Origin: Planctomycetota bacterium
GTDB lineage: Bacteria; Planctomycetota; Planctomycetia; Planctomycetales; Planctomycetaceae
Length of the DNA stretch: 64,000 bases
NCBI GenBank assembly: GCA_003670925.1
Contig: QWQG01000129.1
Coordinates: 1 to 64,000, forward strand
Direction: 5' to 3'
Shown here: piece by piece, positions 21,984 to 36,494 of the stretch
Position numbering within the stretch: position 1 is the stretch's first letter
How the letters are laid out: each line of letters begins with the position of its first letter
The notes under the pieces: generated by a model
The model's input: only the letters and a program-made list of their open reading frames with translations
Database searches by the model: none
What the model was told of the DNA's origin: nothing
Made by a program: the position numbers and the translations under genes

Positions 21984-23597
21984 CTAAAACATCCGTTTAT
22001 GGCGGTAATAGACTTCCAGCGTGAGCAGTGAAAGCGATGTGGCGTAGACTCGGCCTCCGGAGCCATCGTGACCGCCCTGCGGAGCCCAGCTGCCAGATTC
22101 GTGACCTGTCATGGACTGCGAATTAAGCAGTAAGTCTCGCATGACTGGATTCCATTCCTCCCAGGGCTCGCCGCCAAAATGATGCAGGACCTGCGTTGCG
22201 TAGTACCAATAGTAAAGTTCTCCACCCGGTTGCGGAGGACGTGACAACAGATACTGGACACCCGCCTCCAGCCCCGGACGCTTTGAATTCCAAGACGTGT
22301 AGATGCGGCACAGTAAGCCTTCAGCCACCATGGCGTCCGTCAGTCTGTCATTCGGCATGTATCGATAACCACCACCCTTCTTGTCGCTCTGCACTGAATC
22401 CAGAAACGCGGCTACTTTTGGCATCACATTTTTAGGAAACCGCAATCCTCCCTGCTGCGCACTTCGCAAAGCGATCACCTGCCAGCCGGTCACACTGGTG
22501 TCTCCCGCCATGCCGGGTTGATATCTCCAGCCGCCGCCGGCATGCTGAGCTTTTACCATGTAATCGATCGATCGCTGTGCTGGTTGTTTGAGCTTTGGAT
22601 CTTTTGTCATGGCCCAGGCTTCACATAACGCGATCGATGCGATTCCGTGCGCATAAAGAGTGCCTGCACCACAATGACGAAACGTCCCTTCCTTCGTTAG
22701 GTCTTCAATGAGCCAATCCAGTCCGTTCTTTACCGTTTTTTTAAACTTGCCGCTCTGATGGGTGTACCCCGCGCCCAAAAACGGCAGCAGCCCGAAGCCT
22801 GTCCCCGCCGCGTCGCTAGAAACGTTTCCTGGCATCGAACATCGTCCGTTGCATTCTCCCGCCGCGTGAAACTCATTCAGCGACCAGTGCCCATCTTTGT
22901 CTTGATGATCCGCTAACCACTTGAGACCATGTTCTACGGCTGATTCACTCGCAGCACTGCCGCCTTCTGATTCTGCCAGTTTTTTTCGCTGCTCGGCGTC
23001 ACGACCGGCAAACATCCCAGGCGAACGAGCGGCGGCGGCGCGAACTCCATCGTCTCCTGATGGTTCGGGCTGAAGCTGTTCGAGTGGTGGAACAGTAAAC
23101 GAGTGGAGTGGGGAGGATTTTTCAGAATCTACCGTGCCCGCTCCCGTCGCGGCGATGGCATCCTCCGGAGCGATCTTGAGATCTGCATTGCCGGAGTCTT
23201 CAGCCTGCGGAGCAACCCCCGAATTCGGACCGTCGCGACCGCCAGACACATCCGTGGACGGATCCATCTCGCCCTCAGCAGCGTGATCATTCTCGCCGCG
23301 CGTGTCGTCGCTGGACGATGTGCCATCACCGACGGCATTGCCCGTTCCTGCGCCAACTCCTCCCCCCGTGCTTCCGGCAAGGGAGTTTCCAGATCGGTTT
23401 GGCAACCAAGACACCAGCATCAGGAGCCCGGCGAACAACAGGCACGTCATGACGCCAATCAGTGTGCCGACGGAAACTCGTGTCCGAAATCGCTCAACGG
23501 ATTCTTCACTCGAAAGCGCTGGTGGATGTGTTGTGTCTTGGTTCATAGCCGCTCCACCCTGTTGGTGCATGCGTAAGGTCGCCCGTCTACTGCACAA
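21984..23597 (-). CDS. TM-anchored prenyltransferase/squalene-oxidase-repeat protein
   Basis: 537 aa; N-terminal TM (GTLIGVMTCLLFAGLLMLVSWLP), low-complexity linker, C-terminal repeats (GLKWLADHQDKDGHWSLNEF, SIDYMVKAQHAGGGWRYQPG, YWYYATQVLHHFGGEPW). Confidence 0.85.
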   Translation of the reverse strand: MCSRRATLRMHQQGGAAMNQDTTHPPALSSEESVERFRTRVSVGTLIGVMTCLLFAGLLMLVSWLPNRSGNSLAGSTGGGVGAGTGNAVGDGTSSSDDTRGENDHAAEGEMDPSTDVSGGRDGPNSGVAPQAEDSGNADLKIAPEDAIAATGAGTVDSEKSSPLHSFTVPPLEQLQPEPSGDDGVRAAAARSPGMFAGRDAEQRKKLAESEGGSAASESAVEHGLKWLADHQDKDGHWSLNEFHAAGECNGRCSMPGNVSSDAAGTGFGLLPFLGAGYTHQSGKFKKTVKNGLDWLIEDLTKEGTFRHCGAGTLYAHGIASIALCEAWAMTKDPKLKQPAQRSIDYMVKAQHAGGGWRYQPGMAGDTSVTGWQVIALRSAQQGGLRFPKNVMPKVAAFLDSVQSDKKGGGYRYMPNDRLTDAMVAEGLLCRIYTSWNSKRPGLEAGVQYLLSRPPQPGGELYYWYYATQVLHHFGGEPWEEWNPVMRDLLLNSQSMTGHESGSWAPQGGHDGSGGRVYATSLSLLTLEVYYRHKRMF

Positions 23598-24498
23598 AAA
23601 CCGGATCTGTCTGATCGCCGATATAAACTTTGGCGTCGTCCGGAAACGGGACTAGGTGATACTCAAAACCACTGCGGATCATTGCGTTTTTTACGCTCTC
23701 AAAATTTGCGAATGAGTCCTTAAAGACAAACACCGAGAGGAAATGCTTAGTCTTGTCAAAATCGGCGAGGCGAACAGCGATCTCGGCGACATTCGATCCG
23801 TCCACTGCCACAGCGAGCCCCGCCCCAGGCACCAGTTCAATGTATTTCTTCCCAGGGCTTTCTTCTACAATCCCCGCCTCCGCCTCATTGCGGACGATCT
23901 GACCCTCCGCATTCCGATGCGCAAAAGCACTGAAGCGACCTGCTTTGAGAAAGAAGGCAATCGCAGCTTTCGCCGTCGCACGCTGTTGCGGAACTTCTGA
24001 CGTGCGGCTCCTCAGGCTGGCTTCGTTCTCAAGCCTTTGTTTTTCCAGTTGGAGCCGTTCCTTCGCTTCGGCCAACCGCTGAGCGAGTCGTTCCAGTTCC
24101 CGCGCAGTCTCCTCAAGAGTCGCCTGAGATGCGGCGACATCCGTCAGTTTCTGAGTATGCTCTTTCAGTAATGCGTCACTGTTGTCGTCGAGCGATCGAA
24201 GTGATTCCAGCAGACCGAGACTTTCCGGATCGGCAAACTGTCGTTCCAGATCCTCTTTCTGCCGCACGGCCTGGCGGAGTTTTGTGAGTCTCGATTCCGA
24301 TTCCGTCAGCTCACCGCGCAGCCGCCGAAGCGCGCGGCTGGATTCTGCGGTCGGGGCCGACGGCGCAGCATCGCGACTCACCTGATTTGTCAGGATCACC
24401 ACAAGCATGGCGATGAATAGAATTCCGCCAAATGTGTTGCAGATTGTATCCAGCAGCAGATCAAGACTGTCGCCAGAGGGAGCAGCTTTGCGACTCAT
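23587..24498 (-). CDS. Single-TM coiled-coil membrane protein of the GTPase/ExbB operon
   Basis: N-terminal GDSLDLLLDTICNTFGGILFIAMLVVILTNQV anchor, coiled coil, small C-terminal domain; overlaps neighbours by 4 and 11 bp. Confidence 0.75.
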   Translation of the reverse strand: MSRKAAPSGDSLDLLLDTICNTFGGILFIAMLVVILTNQVSRDAAPSAPTAESSRALRRLRGELTESESRLTKLRQAVRQKEDLERQFADPESLGLLESLRSLDDNSDALLKEHTQKLTDVAASQATLEETARELERLAQRLAEAKERLQLEKQRLENEASLRSRTSEVPQQRATAKAAIAFFLKAGRFSAFAHRNAEGQIVRNEAEAGIVEESPGKKYIELVPGAGLAVAVDGSNVAEIAVRLADFDKTKHFLSVFVFKDSFANFESVKNAMIRSGFEYHLVPFPDDAKVYIGDQTDPVFVQ

Positions 24499-25292
24499 TG
24501 CACACCCGCTCCTGTCTCCGCATCAATCGCAGTTTTGTCAGATGGCAGCAGGTCATATCCAACGTCAAAGCGGCGGTCTTGGAGCGCCTTACGGATCGTC
24601 GAAAATGTTTCAATAGTGGTCGGCTTAACGAGCAGCACGAAGTACCGTGAATCCCGGTCCTGATCCTGTACCCACTGCAGAAATGCATCGGGCGTTGCGA
24701 ACGACTGAGGCGGCTGAACCTGCCCCATTTCTGCCGCCACAATCGACATTTCATTCAATTCGACCAACCACGGGGCCTTCGTCGCACCAGCTGGCCGATT
24801 GAAAATGACGCGATTGGATTGCTTCATTGCCGCAATCTGTCGCGCGATTGCTGCCTGCTCGTTCGCCAATGCCTGAATGGCTTCCGGCGTCAGATCTTTC
24901 GCGTCTAAGTTCTGCTGCACTTTGCGGGCATCAATCTTTTCCTGAGTCTTTTGAATCTGCTCATTCTGTAACTCCAGTTCTCCTGCGGCCGCCTTCATTT
25001 CTGCCAGCCGTCGTCGCAGAGAGTCCGCATTGAAACGGATAGTCGTAGTTTCGTCCAGAATCTTCTGCAGACGATCCAGTTCCGAAGTGCCGTCGCTCAC
25101 AGCCTGCCGCAGCATTTTCGCTACTTGAGTGGACTTTTGTTCCTGAGGTGCGGCGGCGGCGCGGCTGAGATTCTGCACCAGCTCGACAGCCATCAGCATG
25201 GTGATCAGCAGGATGATGCCTGTGACCGATGTGATGATGTCCTGAAATGCGAATAGAGAAAATGGTGCTGCGGCTCGTTTGCGTCTGCCCAT
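24495..25292 (-). CDS. Single-TM coiled-coil membrane protein, ExbD-like topology
   Basis: N-terminal FSLFAFQDIITSVTGIILLITMLMAVELV anchor followed by coiled coil and a C-terminal domain; ATGA overlap with the next gene. Confidence 0.72.
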   Translation of the reverse strand: MGRRKRAAAPFSLFAFQDIITSVTGIILLITMLMAVELVQNLSRAAAAPQEQKSTQVAKMLRQAVSDGTSELDRLQKILDETTTIRFNADSLRRRLAEMKAAAGELELQNEQIQKTQEKIDARKVQQNLDAKDLTPEAIQALANEQAAIARQIAAMKQSNRVIFNRPAGATKAPWLVELNEMSIVAAEMGQVQPPQSFATPDAFLQWVQDQDRDSRYFVLLVKPTTIETFSTIRKALQDRRFDVGYDLLPSDKTAIDAETGAGVQ

Positions 25293-25410
25293 ACAATCTT
25301 CTTCTGATGAGCCCCGCTACGGAAGGGGGCCAATGGCGTGGACTTAAGGTTTTTCGCCGTGAGCGGTCGATGCTATTGGGAGGTTGGGCCACATTGCGAG
25401 CGTAACCTTG

Positions 25411-26322
25411 TTAAGGGAATGTAAATTCATGAACCAACTTCGGAGCATCACCAGATCGCAGTGATCGGGAAAAACTTTCAGACTTGCCTTTGACTTTAAT
25501 AGTGACCTGAAAATTCGTGGGGTCGCGGCCTCCATGATTCGCGTAGTGATGGACGTGGACGCTAAATTTTCCGGTCGGAGATTGTCCTGCCGGCCAGTAA
25601 ACATTTTCGACTGGTCGTTGGGACGCTGGTCCTCCGGCATTCATATCGACATCCAGTTCACCGCCACAGCTTGATTGCCGCCGGTTGTACCAGATTTTTT
25701 CATGGCCCGGCGTTTCGACATGCAGATCCAGGTCGTTGCCATTGTTCCATGCCAGCGAAATCTGCACATCTCCCGTTTTCGCACCAGCCGCTAGCAGCCG
25801 GTCACCCAGATCAGAAAATCCATTGCCACCGCCAGCACCTCCCGATTCATCGTTCGCCGCAGGTTGGGGCAAGTCTTGGACCATGAACACGTGCGATTGC
25901 TTTTCCGGCGGTGATAATGGCGTGCCGACGTTCGCAGGTGATGGGGCTGGTGCCGACTTTGGCTGCGCATTGGAAGTGCCGGAGTTTGCGTGGACTTTCC
26001 TCACGTCCGCTCCTGTTCCGCTTCCGGAATCTGGGGCTACAAACTCCCCAGTCCCGCCCTGACCAGACGTCCCGTTGCCGGAACCACCACCAGCGTCTCC
26101 GCCGTCACCCGATCGGGTCGAAATCATTAGCAGCAGCAAGGCCATCAGCAAGACCACGGTGCCAATCTCAACGCCAATCGACACCAGTGTTGGCGTGAGA
26201 AACTCTTTTGCCTGTGACACCGAAGTTCGAATCAATGCGACCCCTTGGGATGCAGGCGTGCGTGGGCCTGATGCGGCTGCAACTGAAGGGCTGGAAGGGG
26301 TGGAGCTTGTCATCGGAATCAC
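25411..26322 (-). CDS. TM-anchored protein with C-terminal YfaP/DUF2135-like domain
   Basis: VSIGVEIGTVVLLMALLLLMIS anchor; C-terminal GDVQISLAWNNGNDLDLHVETPGHEKIWYNRRQSSCGGELDVDMN. Confidence 0.75.
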   Translation of the reverse strand: MIPMTSSTPSSPSVAAASGPRTPASQGVALIRTSVSQAKEFLTPTLVSIGVEIGTVVLLMALLLLMISTRSGDGGDAGGGSGNGTSGQGGTGEFVAPDSGSGTGADVRKVHANSGTSNAQPKSAPAPSPANVGTPLSPPEKQSHVFMVQDLPQPAANDESGGAGGGNGFSDLGDRLLAAGAKTGDVQISLAWNNGNDLDLHVETPGHEKIWYNRRQSSCGGELDVDMNAGGPASQRPVENVYWPAGQSPTGKFSVHVHHYANHGGRDPTNFQVTIKVKGKSESFSRSLRSGDAPKLVHEFTFP

Positions 26323-27179
26323 TCACCATCGCGTTCAAAAACCATAATCCGTAGTTTGTTCACGACATTTCGCGTGCAGTATTCGGTACATTCATCCAGA
26401 AACTCCTCTTCAGCTTTCTTCAGAAACGCGAGCCGTAACTGAATCAAAAGTGCGGCGACGAGTGCTTCCAGCGTGGTCTCAAATGCCGTCGCCAGTCCAG
26501 CAGTGACTCCTTGCAGGGATGTCTTGATCGCATCCATCTCGCCTGCCCCCTGCAGGACTCCGCCGAACTGGCTGATCGCCTGTGACAGCCCCAGGACCGT
26601 TCCGATGAAACCCAGCACAGGGATCGCCCACACAAAAGCGTTGATCACGGAGTAACTGGTCTCTAAAGATGATTCATCGTGGCCCCCCTGAGCCCGCAGA
26701 ATATCTTCGACATCGCCGACTCGGCCTAGGTTTCGAAGATTTGACAGCGCAATCTGAATCCGATTGAACAAAACAAAGTGCCGTGGATCATCGACCGTGC
26801 GGTGAATGTTGTTCATCACCACTTCCACCGTCGAAGCCGCCAGAATGAAGCTCGGATTTGCGGGAACCACGCGATATTCCTCGAGCAGACAACGCCGCTG
26901 CAGGGCTAGTTTTTGCCCTTTGATGATCAGTGCGACACTTGCCCACGCGGATAGAAAAACGATGGCATATGGCGTAGATCCCCGCTCCAGAAACATCTGC
27001 GAAATCGTAAGTTTCGGAAATGCGACAAGGGGTAGATAGAACAGCACCGACAGCACTAATCCCACAATTGACGTTCTGAACATGTTGACGCGCGTAAAGC
27101 GGCAACCACCACCGTACAGGCGTTGCTCAATGTCCATGCGGTTCCAGCAAAGTGGTGGTAATGACTCAGAAGAACTCAT
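26319..27179 (-). CDS. MotA/TolQ/ExbB-type proton channel family protein
   Basis: INAFVWAIPVLGFIGTVLGLSQAISQF...SLQGVTAGLATAFETTLEALVAALLIQL is characteristic of the family. Confidence 0.87.
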   Translation of the reverse strand: MSSSESLPPLCWNRMDIEQRLYGGGCRFTRVNMFRTSIVGLVLSVLFYLPLVAFPKLTISQMFLERGSTPYAIVFLSAWASVALIIKGQKLALQRRCLLEEYRVVPANPSFILAASTVEVVMNNIHRTVDDPRHFVLFNRIQIALSNLRNLGRVGDVEDILRAQGGHDESSLETSYSVINAFVWAIPVLGFIGTVLGLSQAISQFGGVLQGAGEMDAIKTSLQGVTAGLATAFETTLEALVAALLIQLRLAFLKKAEEEFLDECTEYCTRNVVNKLRIMVFERDGE

Positions 27180-27223
27180 GAAAAATGTCCGAACAAGGGG
27201 CAGTTCATTTTTTCAAGCTGCGG

Positions 27224-27871
27224 TTAACCAAAAGCACTGATCAGCAGCACAACGAAATACAGAAGACACAGAATCAGAATGGTGTAACCGCAACTGAGGC
27301 CGATCACAATCAGATTGCGTTCTCGAATTGCTCCCGCATGCTGATGAAACAGCCGGATTGCAAAATAGCCGAGTGCGATAGCGACTCCGCCGAACACGAT
27401 GTCCATGCACAGCAGGATGATCAGACCGATGTTTTCACTAGGTTTGAAAGGCGATAAACGCAGGCGCAGCACGATCATCGCCGTGCACACAAGGAGCAGG
27501 ATGAAGCCCGCGGGCCCGATGATCGCAATCCAGATCGCGGGCTTTGATAAGTTCGGGTCGGGAAAAAAGTCTTCCGTCAGTTGCCGTGCTTCAACCGCTG
27601 GCCATTCTGAAGACGGAAGAATGGGAGGTGCCTTGCTGTCCTTCCCTTCATCAATAATTTCTGCGTTCTGCGGCTTCCCTTCAGCTGCTTGACGTCGCCG
27701 TGCAACGGGAAACAACTCTGGATAATTTGAGGCGGAGGTCCATGATTTCTTATCCGCCGAGACTTCATGCGACTTGCTGAAATTGCCGCGCGCGGCCAGT
27801 TCATGCAGATCTGTCCGCGAATAGGGGCCGCGGACCGTGAGTCCGAGGCGAATATAGAGGGGATCGGTCAC
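27224..27871 (-). CDS. GYF_2/DUF4339-like domain protein with C-terminal TM helices
   Basis: N-terminal LYIRLGLTVRGPYSRTDLHELAARGNFSKSHEVSADKKSWTSASNYPELF; several C-terminal TM segments. Confidence 0.65.
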   Translation of the reverse strand: MTDPLYIRLGLTVRGPYSRTDLHELAARGNFSKSHEVSADKKSWTSASNYPELFPVARRRQAAEGKPQNAEIIDEGKDSKAPPILPSSEWPAVEARQLTEDFFPDPNLSKPAIWIAIIGPAGFILLLVCTAMIVLRLRLSPFKPSENIGLIILLCMDIVFGGVAIALGYFAIRLFHQHAGAIRERNLIVIGLSCGYTILILCLLYFVVLLISAFG

Positions 27872-27898
27872 AGGCGGACCTTACCTTTCCTGACACCA

Positions 27899-30844
27899 TT
27901 ATTCTGCATAAACATAAATGGGTTGACCCTCGGTCAAAAATGCGGAGGTGTCCGAAATGATCGAGTTTCCGTCCGTGATTGTCCCGATTTGATAAAAACG
28001 CGGAACATCGGTCCCACCTTTGGTGTAGACATACAAACTTCCGTTGACCTCTGCCGCGAGCGGCTTGTCAGTAAGGCATACCCATCCGGCCGGTTCACGA
28101 TTCAGCCAGCCGAACCAGCGATATTGTCCCCCGATAGACAGTTTGCTGATGGATTCGCGTTTAGACATTAACTCCGGCAGCACAATGGCTGGATTCCGGA
28201 CAGGTTTCAAAAGTTCCGACACATGCTTTCGCTTGAGATTGGTGGCTTCATCGTCTGGATCGAACGGATTAATATTGTTCAGTGGCTCATTCATCATCTG
28301 TTCAAGAACCCGCGCATAGTGGGCACTGATCACCGGACTTCCCGCCACTGCAGTTTGAAGAATTGTCCGTAACATGAAGAGTCGAAAAATGGGATCTCCA
28401 CGAGTTTCGCCATACACCCGTTCCAGCATGCCGACCATCACTCTTTCCCAATCGTGTTCGTCAATTCCCCTGAGTTCCCTCTCAATCTCGCGGATCAATA
28501 CCGATTCCGGTGCCTCCCAGTCCGGTTTGCCGTCTCGACTCCGAATATCCACCGTAACCTGCGCAATATTGCGGGCGACGGTTTCTCGCTGGCGCTGGGC
28601 AGCAAGCCAGTTCGGCAGCCGGAAGACTTGAACGCCGACCTCTTTCCGGAACTCGGGCTCTGCGTCTGTGTAGTGGCGTTGGCCCGTAAGCAGCAAGACT
28701 GTGTACAGATCCTGCAGGTTAGCCTTCTCGAGCTGCTCCATGATCGTGGCTTGAAGTGGTTGACCGTCTTCATCAAGCCGCCGGCTGACAAACCGCAGAT
28801 ATTCGCAAATCTTTGTCAGGTCCATCCGCCGCGGGAACTGAGGATGCGAGATCAGGAAGGCATCGGCTTCGGCTACATACTTGCGAGCTTCCAAGGGTTT
28901 AAGGCGAGTGCAATCGAAAGAGTGCTGACTCACAAATTCGTTCAGAACGTCAACTTGCGGCCAGAATTCTGCTTCCGTGCGCAGCAAGTTGTCTAATCGG
29001 ATTGCGAGCACGTCATCCTGCGGGAACTCTTTCACGTAAGCATCGATTGCGGTCCTGTATTGTGGCCCAAAACCAACACTGGCCGTGATCTGCCGGAGCA
29101 TTTGATCACGTCTGACCTGAACATTCATTTCAAAAATATGCGTCGCACAGCGCGCGGCTAATGCCGTCGGTCCTGTCGGATTAGAGACCAACTCTGCACT
29201 GACGTCAGGTGTTTCCGCAAGCTGAATAAGATCGCTTCGGAATTTTTCAAAACGCTTGATGTCTTGTTGCCCACTTTTCTCATAGTCCTTCAGCTCCGCT
29301 GCCAATTTCTGAAGGGATGAAGTGAAGACAATGTCATTCTGCTCCTGAATCTGGCTTTGCTTGTTTTCGATGCTCTCAGTCAACTGCTGAACTGCTTCAA
29401 TTTCTGTTTCACTTCGTGACTTCAAGGCATCAAGTTGTGTTTGGAGACTTCTGGCATCAACCAAAGTTGTCACCGCATTCAGTCGCTCCGTGAACATGGC
29501 GACGCCGGTCTCAAATGCTTCGCGGCGGGCGTCTTCATCCCGTGTGGCCTCCTCAATCTCGATGAGTAACATTTGGATCTGCGGAACTACCAACAGGTCC
29601 GGCTGCTCTTTTTGGATGGTGTCCGCATAGGATTTCGCAGACTCCACATCACCACGCTCCAGCAATGTCATCATTGCGGTGACGTGTGCTTCGAGCCTGT
29701 TGCTGTCGTTTCTGTTTTGGAGCACGAATACAGCCAACCCGGCAATGCTGATCACGGACAATGCTGCCACTACAAGGCGGCGGACGTTTTTTCTCCGCGA
29801 CTCCGTCTCGAGTTCGTCGTATCTTGTCTGCAAGCGAAATCGCAGCGATTCCGGGACACCATCGTCATAAACTTCGAGGGCATGCTCGAGCAGTTCCAGT
29901 GATTCGCGGCGGTGACGCTGATCCAGCCCCTCCCGAAGTCGAGCGATCTGTTCGCCGTACTTCTGCTTCCTTAATTCTTCCTCATCGATTTCCTGCAGCC
30001 AGCCGAATGCCGCACGGGTCTGCTGGATCATCGGGTCGTCGTCAGGAAGCTGAGCTTTTTTCTGGCAGCTGTTCCAAATTTCACGAATTTGTCTGCCAGC
30101 AACCACATCGTGAGCCGACCATTTGTCTTGGAGCTGTGACACCAATTTCAGCATTTGTAAGCGTGCGCGGCGAGCTTCTTCCTGTTGCAGAGCACGAACG
30201 GCATTTCGCACGAGCCCAGCGTCCGGAGCTTTGAGCCACTCGGGACTGCTAAGTTCTGCACAGAGCAGGCTTAGTCTTCGATAATCCTGCGCTTGGACCG
30301 CATCGGCCAATTCTTTGCGCACCACTTTCATGCGTTCGGTTTCAAACAGTTCGACCTGCCGACCAGCCACCTCTTTGGCACTGCCGACTTCCGTCTTGTG
30401 AATCCGCCGCATAACACCCAAACGCACACTGAGCGGACTATTCGCCAACGCGTGGCGTCGGTTCAGACGATACAGCGGCTCCAGTCGCCGGGCCGGTGCG
30501 TAGCAACCATTGATCTGGCGTGACGCAAACTGATCCACGGCGGGGGGTGTAGGAAAACCGAACTGATGCAGATGCTCGGTCCAAACCAGCTGTTCTGGAA
30601 AATCGAGAATTGAGACGATTTCCAGCAGTCGGTTTTCGTCAGCCCGCATGATGGCTTCTGATTTTAGACCTTTCTCAACCAACTCGAGACACGTCTTCAG
30701 CAAGGAATTGATCTGCTGAATCACGGCTACATACTTCTCAGAAAGCCGTTTCAGTTCTGCTTCAGCGGGATCATTGCGAAGTTCGAGCATCGCGCGAATT
30801 TCGCCGACGATGTCCTGGATGTCGTCTTTGTGGATGGTCTCCAT
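27899..30844 (-). CDS. Large coiled-coil membrane protein of the GTPase/ExbB operon
   Basis: 981 aa; helical N-terminal region, one TM (RLVVAALSVISIAGLAVFVLQN), long extracytoplasmic C-terminal region; overlaps the upstream gene by 1 bp. Confidence 0.78.
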   Translation of the reverse strand: METIHKDDIQDIVGEIRAMLELRNDPAEAELKRLSEKYVAVIQQINSLLKTCLELVEKGLKSEAIMRADENRLLEIVSILDFPEQLVWTEHLHQFGFPTPPAVDQFASRQINGCYAPARRLEPLYRLNRRHALANSPLSVRLGVMRRIHKTEVGSAKEVAGRQVELFETERMKVVRKELADAVQAQDYRRLSLLCAELSSPEWLKAPDAGLVRNAVRALQQEEARRARLQMLKLVSQLQDKWSAHDVVAGRQIREIWNSCQKKAQLPDDDPMIQQTRAAFGWLQEIDEEELRKQKYGEQIARLREGLDQRHRRESLELLEHALEVYDDGVPESLRFRLQTRYDELETESRRKNVRRLVVAALSVISIAGLAVFVLQNRNDSNRLEAHVTAMMTLLERGDVESAKSYADTIQKEQPDLLVVPQIQMLLIEIEEATRDEDARREAFETGVAMFTERLNAVTTLVDARSLQTQLDALKSRSETEIEAVQQLTESIENKQSQIQEQNDIVFTSSLQKLAAELKDYEKSGQQDIKRFEKFRSDLIQLAETPDVSAELVSNPTGPTALAARCATHIFEMNVQVRRDQMLRQITASVGFGPQYRTAIDAYVKEFPQDDVLAIRLDNLLRTEAEFWPQVDVLNEFVSQHSFDCTRLKPLEARKYVAEADAFLISHPQFPRRMDLTKICEYLRFVSRRLDEDGQPLQATIMEQLEKANLQDLYTVLLLTGQRHYTDAEPEFRKEVGVQVFRLPNWLAAQRQRETVARNIAQVTVDIRSRDGKPDWEAPESVLIREIERELRGIDEHDWERVMVGMLERVYGETRGDPIFRLFMLRTILQTAVAGSPVISAHYARVLEQMMNEPLNNINPFDPDDEATNLKRKHVSELLKPVRNPAIVLPELMSKRESISKLSIGGQYRWFGWLNREPAGWVCLTDKPLAAEVNGSLYVYTKGGTDVPRFYQIGTITDGNSIISDTSAFLTEGQPIYVYAE

Positions 30845-32394
30845 TATGGAACTCTCCCAGCTTGTTCCGCTCCGGCATCGACACTGGACGAGATCACGAT
30901 CTCAGAGCCAAGGGCTCCCATGGAGCGGATCAGCCGATAATGGATGCGACCCGTCTTTTCGATTTCTTCACACAGTTCTGAAAGTGTCTTCATGGCTGTT
31001 TGGGCTTCGCTGAAAGTGTCGAATAGACCTGCCGAAACGGCTTTCTGTTCTTCAATTTTTTCCATCTGGCGTTGCCGAAGATCGCGTTGATTCGACAGGG
31101 CCTGTACGAAACCCTTTTCTAACTGACGGTCGAGGTTGTCCAATCCCGTCTGGGACTTTTCAAGTTCCTCATCGAAAGTGTTGAGTTCTCTTTGATACTT
31201 CTCTACTGCGCTGGCAACATCCTTGGTAAATTTTTCCAATTCCTTGTGACTTAAACGCTTCTCTGAGTAGATAACCTCGCCCTTGTCGTTCCGCGCCGGT
31301 AGCTTGGGAACGTTGGTGGAGTGCAACGCCTCGACAGCAAGTTGACCACCTTCCATTTTAAGTATCAGTTCAATTTTTAGAAGATTCCGATCCGAACCGT
31401 CTTCCGGGAAGAGCATTTCCATGGGCTCATTCAGGACGAGCGTATCGCCAGAGGTTGCATGTTCCGGCCATCCCTCAAACATAAGCTCCAGTTGCAGCAA
31501 TTCGACGGGCGGCAGTTCTACACCGGGGACCACAAACGGCGCCATCTTTTGCTTGCTGTTGCTGAAACTGACTCTTAACGCGGGCGGATGCACTGACGAC
31601 CAGAGATCGCAGACCTCGGTGTCTGCATCTGCGGAAATTTTAAGCCGGCAAAATGGTAATTTCCCCTTGTCTGCGTCCTTTAGCCAGCGGAAGCTGAACC
31701 GCTCATCCTTCAGCTGGAACTCGCCAATATTTTGGTTTCGATCAAACCCCGCTGCTGAGACCTGCGCGACGTTCCAGATGTATGACTGCTCCGCTTGGGA
31801 CGGGGGATCTAGCTGGACCTTAAGTCCCTGAGGCTCAGAGAACTCACCACCAAGCAGTTCCAGATCCACTTTTGTTGGATCGGATGCTCGAATCAGACAC
31901 AAGGCAATTTCGTCCGGGACGCCTTCGCCCGCAAGCGGCAATTTTCGTGACCGAATACGAACATCATCCAGTGGTTTCCCCGTCGCAATTGGTTGTGCAT
32001 CCGTTGGTGTATCGCCTGACGCTGCGGCAATCTCCGACGGACCCGCCGCAGGCGGGGTCGCCGATTTTTCCGCAGGGTCGCTGTGGCCCAAATCAAGTGG
32101 TGCATCGGCATCCGGTTCAGGAGGCGCGGCCGATTCTGTGCTGGCGGCTGACGGTGCTTCATGCTTTGGGATTGACGACGAATTCGGCAATGTATCCGTC
32201 GGTTGAGGATTTGCGATCTCAGTTGGTCCGGCCGCTAGCGCCAGCGTGTTGCGTGGCCCCGATGAGGTAGATCCGCGCGTCATGAGCGTCATCAGCGCCA
32301 TGAGCAGTCCCACGCAAAACATCTGCGCGAGAACTCCCATGCCAACGGGCACGAAGAAACTGACAGACTGCGGTTTGGTGACGTCGATGTTCAT
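30844..32394 (-). CDS. TM-anchored protein sharing a C-terminal module with the adjacent GAP1-like protein
   Basis: N-terminal TM (FFVPVGMGVLAQMFCVGLLMALMTLM), Pro/Ala-rich linker, FSFRWLKD beta module, coiled coil, C-terminal IHYRLIRSMGALGSEIVISS. Confidence 0.75.
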   Translation of the reverse strand: MNIDVTKPQSVSFFVPVGMGVLAQMFCVGLLMALMTLMTRGSTSSGPRNTLALAAGPTEIANPQPTDTLPNSSSIPKHEAPSAASTESAAPPEPDADAPLDLGHSDPAEKSATPPAAGPSEIAAASGDTPTDAQPIATGKPLDDVRIRSRKLPLAGEGVPDEIALCLIRASDPTKVDLELLGGEFSEPQGLKVQLDPPSQAEQSYIWNVAQVSAAGFDRNQNIGEFQLKDERFSFRWLKDADKGKLPFCRLKISADADTEVCDLWSSVHPPALRVSFSNSKQKMAPFVVPGVELPPVELLQLELMFEGWPEHATSGDTLVLNEPMEMLFPEDGSDRNLLKIELILKMEGGQLAVEALHSTNVPKLPARNDKGEVIYSEKRLSHKELEKFTKDVASAVEKYQRELNTFDEELEKSQTGLDNLDRQLEKGFVQALSNQRDLRQRQMEKIEEQKAVSAGLFDTFSEAQTAMKTLSELCEEIEKTGRIHYRLIRSMGALGSEIVISSSVDAGAEQAGRVP

Positions 32395-32418
32395 CTCGAA
32401 TAATCCAATTCGGACTCT

Positions 32419-35016
32419 TTACTCAGCTGCGACTCCGTCGTCTGTTCTCACCAGTTCGATTCCCGTGGCGCCAGCGTCAGGAATCATCAGCCGCAAGGAG
32501 AACTGCAACTTGCTGTTTGCAGCAATGGATTCAAGCATGGTATTCAAATCCTGCGCCAGCAATTTCAACTGGTCTAACTCGGCAAGCATGGCATCCACTT
32601 CTCGATTGATATTTTTCACAATGGCATCCTGCGCATCTATTTCCCTTGTCTTCAGATCCCGGCTCTTAAAGTCCGCCTTATTTTCAACCAGCTTTCGAGC
32701 GTCGGCCTGTAAAATTTCCAGCTCCATTCGGGCTTTCTTGAGCAATTTTTTCTGTTTGTCAATCTCATCGCTGAATGACTTGAGATTGTCGTTCGTTTTA
32801 ACCATCAGGCTAGGTGTAAACGAAAATTGCTTCATTTCAAATCCACGGTTCGCCTGATCCACAGCGGGCATTTCTAAAGTCATTTCCAGCGTCACGTGCA
32901 CGTCTTGGTCAGTCGCCAGCAGTTTCACCATGATCTCTATTGTGGGACGATACTTTCCATTCGGTTCTCCTTGAATGCGAAATTTCACTGCATCGCCAAC
33001 CGCGAGGATAGTCGGTCCTGTGCGTGTTACCTCGCCTGGCAGATTCATAAATTCATAATGAAATCTCAAGGCTTCCGTATTCGTCAGCTGATTGCGGCTT
33101 ACCAATTGTTCCATCAGCTCTGCTTGACTCAAATCGAACTGCAGTGGCTTAACTCGGTGCACTTCGCGAAGCGTACATTTTTCGCGCTCTGGTTTTATCT
33201 CCGGATTGCCTGCTTCCATTTCCAACATGCAGTTGATGATTTCGAAGCCTTCATTATCTTTATGCCACCGGAACGAGAAATTCCAGTTTTGATCCAGCCG
33301 GAATGTGCCCACGACATCCGGATTGCCCCCTAGATTGACTCCTGTCGTCGACTGCCGAATTACGTCCCAGTCCCGGAATAGTTGCTCTTTGCTGTCTTTC
33401 TCCTCAAGCGAAAAATCCAGACCGGGCTTCAGCACGGAACGGCCGCCAATAATCTTCTTTAACGTGAAATGGTCGCGCGAATCCACATAAATCTTGGCAA
33501 GATGGATTGGACCATTCAGACCAGAATTCAGGCCCACACTCGGGATGCTTATTTGCAGCCGGTTGCCTAAGTCCCGCACATTCTGCAGCGGAGTAAATGC
33601 TGGTTCTCCCGACGGGGCGTTCTGCGCCGGCGGTGGTGGAGTGTGCACCGTCTTATTCGGCACGCCGACATTTTTGGACGTGTGGCCCGATGATGCCAGC
33701 AGCTTCGCTTGCTCATCAGCCTCCTGCTGTTGCTTCGCTTGGGCTACTTGGTCGTCAGGCTTCATAAGTGTCTGGGATTTCTGCTTCCTTTTCTGTTGTT
33801 CTTCGTGTGTGGCTTTTTCATTCGCCTCAGCCATAATCTTCGCCGCTGCGCCGGTTTCCGCGACGGGAAACGGCTGCACAGCTAGGACGAGAGTGACAAC
33901 GACCATGGTTCCCAAGACTAGCAGACTCGCAGGATGCAGCAGAACAGGACGTCGACCCCGCCGACTTCGTCGATGAGAAACACTCACACCGGATATGCTC
34001 CGTTCTGGGTTGACAGCGAACTCCAGTTTGTCGTCGATCACGGCGTCTGGATGTTCGACGTCAGGAATATCAGCCGATGTTGCCTGAGTGGATGCATCCG
34101 AAATTGATGCATCCGAATTTACGCGTGGTCGTCGTCTGGCGATCGCATCTTCTTGATGATCGTCCCACGGGCGAGTTGCGACGTTCGTCAGTGGAGTCAG
34201 CGGAAGCAGTGGTGCCGGGATCTTCCTCGCAGCGATTCCCGGGATATCGATCGTTTTAGCGCGAGGGTCCAAGCGAGCTCGTTTCGCCGCGTCAGTTCCG
34301 TCAAGAATAAACTGCCACCTGCAATTGATACTGACAGGCAGATTGCCGCCAAAGAATGTGCTGTAGGATACGTCCCAGCGGCATGCAGGCGGAAGCAGCG
34401 AAAGCGCCTCGTGGACCAGTTGCAGCGCCCACGTCTCATCGCGACTTCCGACATCGCGCGGTAAAATCACCTGCATGAGATTGCTCGTCTCGCCCGCAGA
34501 CGATGCCAGCACGGCGGCCCAGCCTGCATCGCCTGTCGCTGCCTTCCATGCGTGGCAGGCGTCCGACTTTGGCTGGTCGAGCATGGGCAGATCGAGCTGC
34601 TTTTCATCCGGCAGCACGGAGGGTTCCGTATCGCTGCTCCAGTCTCTGATCCACGGCACCTTCAATGATTCCGCAGCCGGGCCTTCGGAAAGTGCGGTTG
34701 CAAGCTGGCTGCTCTCGACAGCCAGCATATGGGCCAGTTTATTAGATCGATTTGTGTGGTCGAGCGGAGCATTGGAGACGCGGGCCAGAATATGCAGTTT
34801 TTGATCACCGACTCGGGCAATGTAATGGGCGAAGTTCACGGGATTCAGATTCGCCTGATCACCATAGGCGTCAAACACATGTGAATAACTCGTCAGTCGC
34901 TCCAGCAACTGTGCCAGATTTCCCGGCATGCCGCGTGTGCTCCGCACCGTACAGAACCCCGTACTGCCGGTTCGCAGACCTTGACGGGCTGAAGTAAACA
35001 CGATCTCCTGAATCAC
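32419..35016 (-). CDS. GTPase-associated protein 1 (GAP1)-like membrane protein
   Basis: 865 aa; N-terminal MIQEIVFTSARQGLRTGSTGFCTVRSTRGMP...HILARVSNAPLDHTNRSNKLAHML resembles the GAP1 N-terminal domain; mid-protein TM (LLVLGTMVVVTLVLAVQPF); overlaps the GTPase gene by 4 bp. Confidence 0.68.
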   Translation of the reverse strand: MIQEIVFTSARQGLRTGSTGFCTVRSTRGMPGNLAQLLERLTSYSHVFDAYGDQANLNPVNFAHYIARVGDQKLHILARVSNAPLDHTNRSNKLAHMLAVESSQLATALSEGPAAESLKVPWIRDWSSDTEPSVLPDEKQLDLPMLDQPKSDACHAWKAATGDAGWAAVLASSAGETSNLMQVILPRDVGSRDETWALQLVHEALSLLPPACRWDVSYSTFFGGNLPVSINCRWQFILDGTDAAKRARLDPRAKTIDIPGIAARKIPAPLLPLTPLTNVATRPWDDHQEDAIARRRPRVNSDASISDASTQATSADIPDVEHPDAVIDDKLEFAVNPERSISGVSVSHRRSRRGRRPVLLHPASLLVLGTMVVVTLVLAVQPFPVAETGAAAKIMAEANEKATHEEQQKRKQKSQTLMKPDDQVAQAKQQQEADEQAKLLASSGHTSKNVGVPNKTVHTPPPPAQNAPSGEPAFTPLQNVRDLGNRLQISIPSVGLNSGLNGPIHLAKIYVDSRDHFTLKKIIGGRSVLKPGLDFSLEEKDSKEQLFRDWDVIRQSTTGVNLGGNPDVVGTFRLDQNWNFSFRWHKDNEGFEIINCMLEMEAGNPEIKPEREKCTLREVHRVKPLQFDLSQAELMEQLVSRNQLTNTEALRFHYEFMNLPGEVTRTGPTILAVGDAVKFRIQGEPNGKYRPTIEIMVKLLATDQDVHVTLEMTLEMPAVDQANRGFEMKQFSFTPSLMVKTNDNLKSFSDEIDKQKKLLKKARMELEILQADARKLVENKADFKSRDLKTREIDAQDAIVKNINREVDAMLAELDQLKLLAQDLNTMLESIAANSKLQFSLRLMIPDAGATGIELVRTDDGVAAE

Positions 35017-36494
35017 GAATCCCGCTCCTTTCGGCCGGAGTTTTTCGCGGCCGCTGGAAGAGGAACAGCAGTGGTAGATGCCGCCGCAGGAATCAGGGAC
35101 GCGTTGCCGTTTCGTAACCCGGCTCGGTGCAATGCATAGAACACCGGCAGTTCAACCCAACGAGGAGCAATCTGACTGGGGTCAAATCGCAGATCCACGC
35201 GCCCATTCAGATCTGATCCCGCCACGATTGGACTTCGCCCGGTGGCAGTAACCGGAATGAAGACCACCTCGCTCGCAAATCCTCGCGCAGCCGTGACGAT
35301 CGACGGCCCATGCTCCATCAGCAACTCTTCGATGTCTTTGGAGACTTCCATCAACAGATCCAATTGCAGACAAGAAACGCCATCATGACCGACGCGAATC
35401 ACATCATCCAGAGCTTTAGGCGACTTTTTCAGCAAGGGACGCCATGCATCAAATTTATGGACGATGACAATCAGCGGACGATCGAACTTTTCGGTGGCTG
35501 GCATTTTCGTCAACTGCCGCACTCGAGCGGCAGCTTCCGAAAGTACGTCCGCTTGAGGATATGTGGTGCTCCCCGATTCTAACTGCGGATCTAGACTGGG
35601 GGCGCTGCAAGCACGACAGGCGCGTCGGAACGCTGATTCCTGCGTCGGGTCGTAGATAAATAGGAGCGCTTCCGACTTCGCCATATGATCGATCACGGGC
35701 GTCTGCGACGTCACAGCTCCCGGCAGATAGTGTTCCCCGGCATTGTCGTACAGACAAACCATCCGCGATACTTCGCGACGTCGGCTATGCAGCGGATGAG
35801 TTTCGTCCGGCTGAACCGAGTATAAATAGGGACGCGACATCAGCAAATCCTGCTCGCCGACATGCGTTTCGTAATACCACTTTCCGGTCCTGTCGGTCTT
35901 TTCAAGTTTGACGAGCTTCGTATGATCTTCGTAGTCAAACAGCGTCTTCACATATTCGGTCATCAACTGATTGGCACGCGGTGCCGCATTCTCAAACCGC
36001 AGATGAAATTGCTTACTCAAGCTGGCCCCTACCGAATGAATCATCGTGGCGAGATAAAAGGACTTGCCTGATGACGGGGCGCCCAGAATTGAAAGAAACA
36101 AGGGCTCCATTTCTAAGAGGCCGCGATTCACAATGGCATGACAGCGCGGGCAGGCCAATTCCTGACATGCCTCTCCCTTCTCATCCAGCGCTCGGCCATC
36201 GACCGTGAAAAGTGTCGGCAGAAACCTGCGATATTCTGCAGCGCCGGCCCGCGAATCACCAATCAGGCTGCCATGCGCCGCCACCCACAGAATCTCCTCC
36301 GGCGGAAACCTGTACCAGCAGGTCGGACAAGTGACCAGTGGCAGAAGTGAGATGGAGCGTGCAGACTCAACCATTGCTCTGGTATCACGTGTCTCAAGCG
36401 GGCCTGAAAGAGAAAAGCCTTGGATTTCAAAAGCGTTGAGGGTAGTCCCTAGACGGCTCTGCAACTCTTGAACCAATCCCTGCCGTTTCACCAT
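35013..36494 (-). CDS. Zinc-ribbon P-loop GTPase (GAP1-associated, TRAFAC-like)
   Basis: CPTCW...CPRCH zinc ribbon, Walker A GAPSSGKS, G3-like DNAGE, G4-like HKFD. Start may lie downstream (e.g. Met at 36374). Confidence 0.75.
   Translation of the reverse strand: MVKRQGLVQELQSRLGTTLNAFEIQGFSLSGPLETRDTRAMVESARSISLLPLVTCPTCWYRFPPEEILWVAAHGSLIGDSRAGAAEYRRFLPTLFTVDGRALDEKGEACQELACPRCHAIVNRGLLEMEPLFLSILGAPSSGKSFYLATMIHSVGASLSKQFHLRFENAAPRANQLMTEYVKTLFDYEDHTKLVKLEKTDRTGKWYYETHVGEQDLLMSRPYLYSVQPDETHPLHSRRREVSRMVCLYDNAGEHYLPGAVTSQTPVIDHMAKSEALLFIYDPTQESAFRRACRACSAPSLDPQLESGSTTYPQADVLSEAAARVRQLTKMPATEKFDRPLIVIVHKFDAWRPLLKKSPKALDDVIRVGHDGVSCLQLDLLMEVSKDIEELLMEHGPSIVTAARGFASEVVFIPVTATGRSPIVAGSDLNGRVDLRFDPSQIAPRWVELPVFYALHRAGLRNGNASLIPAAASTTAVPLPAAAKNSGRKERDS

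Follow-up and report, generated by a model that had tools for sequence, protein, structure and literature searches.

A planctomycete GTPase/GAP1 operon linked to an ExbB/ExbD-type motor module

A zinc-ribbon GTPase and a GTPase-associated protein, GAP1, are encoded by the first two of ten co-directional genes (21984-36374, minus strand) in a 64,000-nucleotide stretch of a Planctomycetota genome (assembly GCA_003670925.1, contig QWQG01000129.1, positions 1 to 64,000), hereafter the window. The genes are separated by -11 to +118 nucleotides and overlap at five of the nine junctions. An earlier note on this DNA had treated the first two as a coupled pair. The pair is real, but eight further genes lie downstream in the same operon and had been overlooked, among them a MotA/TolQ/ExbB-type module consisting of a channel subunit (ExbB) and two ExbD-like proteins (ExbDa and ExbDb), and a large membrane protein of 981 amino acids (p981). 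The case stands about evenly balanced for reading this operon as encoding an accessory machine that spans the envelope and belongs to the GAP1-N2/DO-GTPase class, a GTPase-switched, ion-driven motor that probably responds to envelope attack. A more specific version, which we put forward somewhat more tentatively, is that the GTPase/GAP1 switch directly gates a motor made of an ExbB ring and ExbDa-ExbDb, via GAP1 and p981, while relatives swap this output for a GYF-attached ATPase, ABC transporter or protease; the system would then be a modular switch-plus-power-unit platform of Planctomycetota.

The GTPase-GAP1 pair

35013..36374, minus strand: DO-GTPase-type zinc-ribbon GTPase, in a reading frame open to 36494
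36141..36329, minus strand: its split zinc-ribbon region CPTC...CPRC (residues 56-59 and 115-118)
36060..36083, minus strand: its P-loop GAPSSGKS (residues 138-145)
35733..35747, minus strand: its G3/Walker B motif DNAGE (residues 250-254)
32419..35016, minus strand: GAP1 protein, 865 amino acids, GTG start (GAP1-N2, GAP1-M, linker, transmembrane (TM) helix and ectodomain)
34609..35016, minus strand: GAP1-N2 domain, residues 1-136 (PF20013, E=4.1e-20, 72.7 bits against a cut-off of 24)
34243..34557, minus strand: GAP1-M domain, residues 154-258 (PF20014, E=4.4e-8, 33.7 bits against a cut-off of 24)
33877..33933, minus strand: TM helix, residues 362-380, the sole hydrophobic segment of GAP1
32422..33591, minus strand: predicted periplasmic domain of about 390 residues (AlphaFold: beta-sandwich 504-732 and antiparallel coiled-coil hairpin 737-834)

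Read to its open 5' end, the GTPase frame spans 35013-36494 (493 amino acids). The alignment with five close relatives (75-93% identical) covers residue 41 onwards, and in four of the five this is exactly where the protein starts. The most likely start of the gene is accordingly at that residue, at position 36374. The motifs pointed out in the earlier note (GAPSSGKS, DNAGE, HKFD at residues 346-349, and CPTC/CPRC) were all located and are conserved across 31 relatives: the D, G and E of DNAGE and the K and D of [T/H]KxD are invariant, including Glu254 (31/31), and 30 of the 31 retain the four ribbon cysteines and GKS, a pattern compatible with one split ribbon or two. The window protein scores 18.9 bits against the Pfam DO-GTPase2 model, under the cut-off of 27, and this model is matched by 26 of the 31 relatives at E<=0.01 and by 13 at E<=1e-5. 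Judged by its sequence and its relatives, it is a DO-GTPase. An FHA domain is matched by two of the 31 aligned GTPases, for which the long GTPases of loci L116 and L118 are candidates.

The overlap of the GTPase stop with the GAP1 start, first noticed from the letters alone, amounts to four nucleotides (GTGA). The partner's GAP1-like N-terminus and its membrane span near residue 360, both also proposed then, correspond to two Pfam domains above cut-off, which are matched in 36 of 36 GAP1 relatives, and to the single TM helix. A very basic stretch, HRRSRRGRRP, precedes this helix, hence the N-terminus is predicted to be cytoplasmic and residues 381-865 extracytoplasmic, in line with the large external C-terminus that had been suggested. 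In the AlphaFold model (mean pLDDT 77), the head is globular and a disordered linker joins it to the TM helix, beyond which lie the beta-sandwich and the coiled-coil hairpin. A TM helix lies C-terminal to GAP1-M in 91 of 92 loci, some of which share one genome. GAP1-C (PF20052, 511 positions) has no match anywhere in the genome at E<=1 and is not listed for any of the 36 relatives. Its position in the window protein is taken by the TM helix and ectodomain, so that this locus varies on the canonical GAP1 architecture and does not reproduce it in full. In one genus, four genomes carry GAP1 genes on both sides of a single GTPase (L036, L040, L042, L068).

Among bacterial proteins, Foldseek places TagF, a regulator of type VI secretion, closest to the GAP1 model over residues 1-270 (9t0n, prob 0.99, E=1.7e-3, TMt 0.39; 6iz8, prob 0.89). 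Homology was rejected because profile-profile comparison was negative, and we keep TagF as a lead on fold only. The BBSome and other matches of GAP1, like all those of p981, had low TM-scores (0.02-0.39) and were dismissed as coiled-coil or helical-repeat noise. Searching PDB profiles with GAP1 yielded nothing beyond coiled-coil and low-complexity matches.

A channel-type module in the operon

26319..27179, minus strand: MotA/TolQ/ExbB-family channel subunit, ExbB (PF01618, E=1.3e-10)
25411..26322, minus strand: TM and periplasmic beta protein with an invariant NDLDLH motif (no Pfam match; DUF2135/YfaP-like by eye only)
24495..25292, minus strand: ExbDa, ExbD-like, with an N-terminal TM helix bearing an invariant FQD (D18), a coiled coil and a C-terminal domain
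23587..24498, minus strand: ExbDb, paralogue of ExbDa, with an N-terminal TM helix (invariant D17), a coiled coil and a putatively ExbD-like C-terminal domain

PF01618 (MotA_ExbB) is matched by all 30 ExbB relatives, in which the pore-helix motifs PxxGFIGTVxGL and FxTT are invariant or nearly so; P187, T194, T235 and T236 do not vary (channel threonine 30/30). TolQ proteins were the only matches, weak ones (E=0.03), in a PDB profile search. In most loci the order is ExbB-(TM/beta protein)-ExbDa-ExbDb. The last two are clearly paralogous by profile comparison (hhalign 99%, E=7.5e-19). The C-terminal domain of ExbDb aligns with ordinary planctomycete ExbD (hhalign 63%, E=7e-5; unrelated profiles below 1%), and ExbDa gives no signal in this comparison (0.8%). 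In both proteins a single aspartate, invariant among the relatives, lies where the sole TM helix starts (ExbDa D18, 29/29; ExbDb D17, 28/28), which is where the ion-binding aspartate of ExbD, TolR, MotB and ZorB sits. PDB profile searches with the two proteins gave coiled-coil and low-complexity matches only.

Conservation and distribution

27899..30844, minus strand: p981, with a helical cytoplasmic domain (1-350), a TM helix (357-375) and a large, mostly helical ectodomain; a conserved core partner that fits no known family
27224..27871, minus strand: GYF-domain protein with three TM helices (GYF_2, E=6e-5, slightly under cut-off; relatives well above)

Contexts of up to 20 kb around the loci were scanned with profiles built for each component, and core-set counts were taken over 43 Planctomycetota loci of named genomes with at least 9.4 kb of downstream flank. 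The set GTPase-GAP1-p981-GYF is present at 41 of these (GAP1 41, p981 41, GYF protein 41) and ExbB at 21. The series GTPase-GAP1-p981-ExbB-ExbDa-ExbDb recurs in six genomes of families distant from that of the window (L113, L116, L118, L120, L124, L128). Of the 72 loci in a GTPase tree, 46 have ExbB, and such loci occupy most deep branches, so that the linkage seems old, with repeated loss; the plain ExbB class requires 12 changes on this tree against 22.8 in shuffles, a count that cannot separate gain from loss. Ordinary ExbD genes occur in every genome tested, and a 6-Mb genome holds some ten ExbD-type matches; by a rough estimate, one would fall within a 10-kb neighbourhood by accident in about 2% of cases.

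The system itself is patchily distributed. GAP1-N2 was found in 61 of 170 genomes of the order, in 11 of 18 listed genomes of the genus and in 36 of 392 genomes sampled across the phylum. A separate search with the GTPase in named genomes gave nearly all its matches in Planctomycetota, with one labelled Ectothiorhodospiraceae. The genome of the window also carries a decayed second GTPase/GAP1 pair (G000:C113, L069 5313-5705 and 6087-6469, minus strand), in which GAP1 is reduced to its GAP1-N2 domain (130 amino acids) and the GTPase to frame-broken fragments.

Could the operon encode an envelope-maintenance or transport machine, similar to Tol-Pal or Ton and timed to growth or division by the GTPase, with no conflict system involved? 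Such roles are usual for ExbB/TolQ-type subunits, the large ectodomains show good conservation, and the ExbB linkage is seemingly old in the phylum. This is nonetheless rather unlikely in our estimate, given that GAP1-N2 is limited to the above fractions of order and genus, that ordinary ExbD genes are available in every genome tested, and that the second copy has decayed and the output genes are exchanged. Patchiness, exchanged outputs and decay are more in keeping with an accessory role of the conflict type than with housekeeping, although no defence profile matched well.

Two operon members lie outside the core set and the channel-type module:

30844..32394, minus strand: p516, an N-terminal TM helix and a duplicate of the GAP1 ectodomain (BLASTP against GAP1 over 400 columns, E=4e-9)
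21984..23597, minus strand: TM-anchored squalene-hopene-cyclase-like alpha-toroid protein, the final gene of the run

Alternative outputs and separable halves

The fourth core gene begins with GYF domains and then varies. Its continuation is of a 3-TM/DUF4190 type in most loci, a trypsin in eight, a T2SSE ATPase in eight others, and FHA domains with an ABC transporter in one. At this last locus (L067, 10388-13333), two GYF domains are fused to the FHA domains and the transporter (ATPase and ABC-2 membrane part), and the fusion occupies the slot of the GYF/3-TM protein. Since the output is thus swapped for other energised modules, these variants suggest that one switch serves several membrane machines.

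A minimal type (L170-L177) combines a GAP1 of 367-395 amino acids and a p981 of 373-378 with a GYF-T2SSE ATPase fusion, and has no ExbB. Both short proteins end at their TM helix, and they are therefore predicted to be tail-anchored; the alternative of soluble proteins was rejected on this ground. Here the ectodomains of GAP1 and p981 are missing jointly, probably through one event, the T2SSE-type loci being close relatives within one clade. This joint absence ties the two ectodomains to each other. It also bears on the earlier suggestion that signalling across the membrane takes place within one polypeptide. GAP1 does join a cytoplasmic head, a TM helix and an ectodomain in one chain, but the GTPase is a second polypeptide. 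That GAP1 alone is the signalling device, with no need for other membrane parts, is in our view highly improbable, as p981 is an equally constant partner (41 of 43 each) and the two proteins lack their ectodomains together.

The halves of the operon can also part. At two loci of one family (L254, L255), a diverged p981-like protein accompanies ExbB-ExbDa-ExbDb and no GTPase or GAP1 is linked to them, which rules out a strict dependence of this ExbB subfamily on the GTPase. A sister ExbB subfamily (frames of about 500-620 amino acids) is accompanied by one or two ExbD-like genes, and by none of the GTPase-system genes (L104, L105, L257, L258). Because this related trio with a longer ExbB exists by itself, the motor probably derives, by recruitment, from such an independent form.

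The GTPase, GAP1, p981 and GYF protein might then be a functional sensor or switch unit, and ExbB/ExbD a separate ion motor that merely shares the operon; the absence of ExbB from about half of the core loci and the p981-like/ExbB/ExbD module without GTPase would be expected in that case. We consider this unlikely. The identical gene order returns across distant families, any ExbB gene seen in the slot belonged to this one subfamily, none of the ectodomain-less minimal loci seen had ExbB, and p981 adjoins both halves. Being common to the GTPase/GAP1 half and the ExbB/ExbD half, p981 is the leading candidate for a coupling role.

A proposed mechanism

A GTPase-switched motor could work as follows. 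On the cytoplasmic face, the zinc-ribbon GTPase would meet the GAP1-N2/M head of GAP1 at the inner membrane. As GAP1 and p981 both span this membrane, the nucleotide state could be relayed through them to the periplasm, and also to the GYF/3-TM protein. The output would probably be an A5 ring of ExbB around an ExbDa/ExbDb heterodimer (a 5:1:1 assembly), each partner contributing its one invariant TM aspartate. The switch would license or stop this motor, which might then turn and work mechanically on the envelope or leak ions across it. The trigger would probably be an attack on the envelope by a phage or a competitor, giving the system a role in defence.

Several points weigh against this proposal. 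ExbDa and ExbDb match no Pfam ExbD model (PF02472 is missing among the families listed for their relatives), for which reason we name them ExbD-like, and profile comparison picked up nothing in their TM parts. About half of the core loci do without ExbB, and L254 and L255 keep the p981-like protein and the motor genes with no linked GTPase or GAP1. No PADLOC defence family was convincingly matched. Contact between GTPase/GAP1 and the ExbB/ExbD proteins is something we infer.

DO-GTPase/GAP1 systems are widespread and are predicted to act in conflicts; we found no report of experiments on them in the literature searched. Their stable link to a well-understood channel family offers a concrete, testable output, the gating of ion flow by the GTPase. 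If true, an ExbB/TolQ-type motor would here be under the control of a small GTPase.

Comparison with known systems

The module resembles the MotA/TolQ/ExbB-MotB/TolR/ExbD motors (Tol-Pal, Ton, flagellar stator, gliding) in its PF01618 subunit with invariant pore-helix Pro, Gly and Thr, and in its partners, each of which has one TM helix with an invariant Asp close to where the helix begins. It differs from them in having two distinct ExbD-like partners with long coiled coils, set inside a GTPase/GAP1 operon; TonB, TolA and Pal were not recognised. The Zorya (ZorAB) anti-phage system, in which ZorB D24 is required for defence (PMC11890865), likewise places a MotA/ExbB-family ion motor beside accessory genes and follows a similar logic of envelope sensing and ion flow. 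PADLOC gave a weak ZorA match (E=2e-5) and a very weak ZorB1 match on the operon. Membership of Zorya was rejected, since ZorC, ZorD and ZorE are lacking; the long cytoplasmic tail of ZorA is also absent, whereas Zorya has no GTPase/GAP1 switch. With TagF of type VI secretion, the likeness lies in the fold match of the GAP1 model, and the difference in the negative profile comparison.

The closest relatives are the GAP1-N2 DO-GTPase systems in the main text of Kaur et al. 2020 (eLife 9:e52696, PMC7159879), where GAP1 and the DO-GTPases are defined and where the name GAP1 does not imply a GTPase-activating role. They share with the window a zinc-ribbon GTPase with a conserved Walker B glutamate, a downstream GAP1-N2 and GAP1-M, a C-terminal TM segment in GAP1, and GYF-TM and GYF-trypsin genes in planctomycetes. 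The GAP1-TM fusion, which the earlier note thought might be undescribed, is thus real but already published there beside a zinc-ribbon DO-GTPase. The window departs from these systems in lacking a GAP1-C match, in having no recognised tubulin, HSP70, kinase or FNIII protein (no Pfam match to FNIII among the ten operon proteins), and in its tie to p981 and to the module of ExbB and two ExbD-like proteins. The words MotA, ExbB, TolQ and proton are absent from that main text, and neither the p981 partner nor the ExbB/ExbD output was found in it or in our literature searches. The switch core belongs to a known class, and its link to ion-motor genes and p981 is new as far as the searched literature goes.

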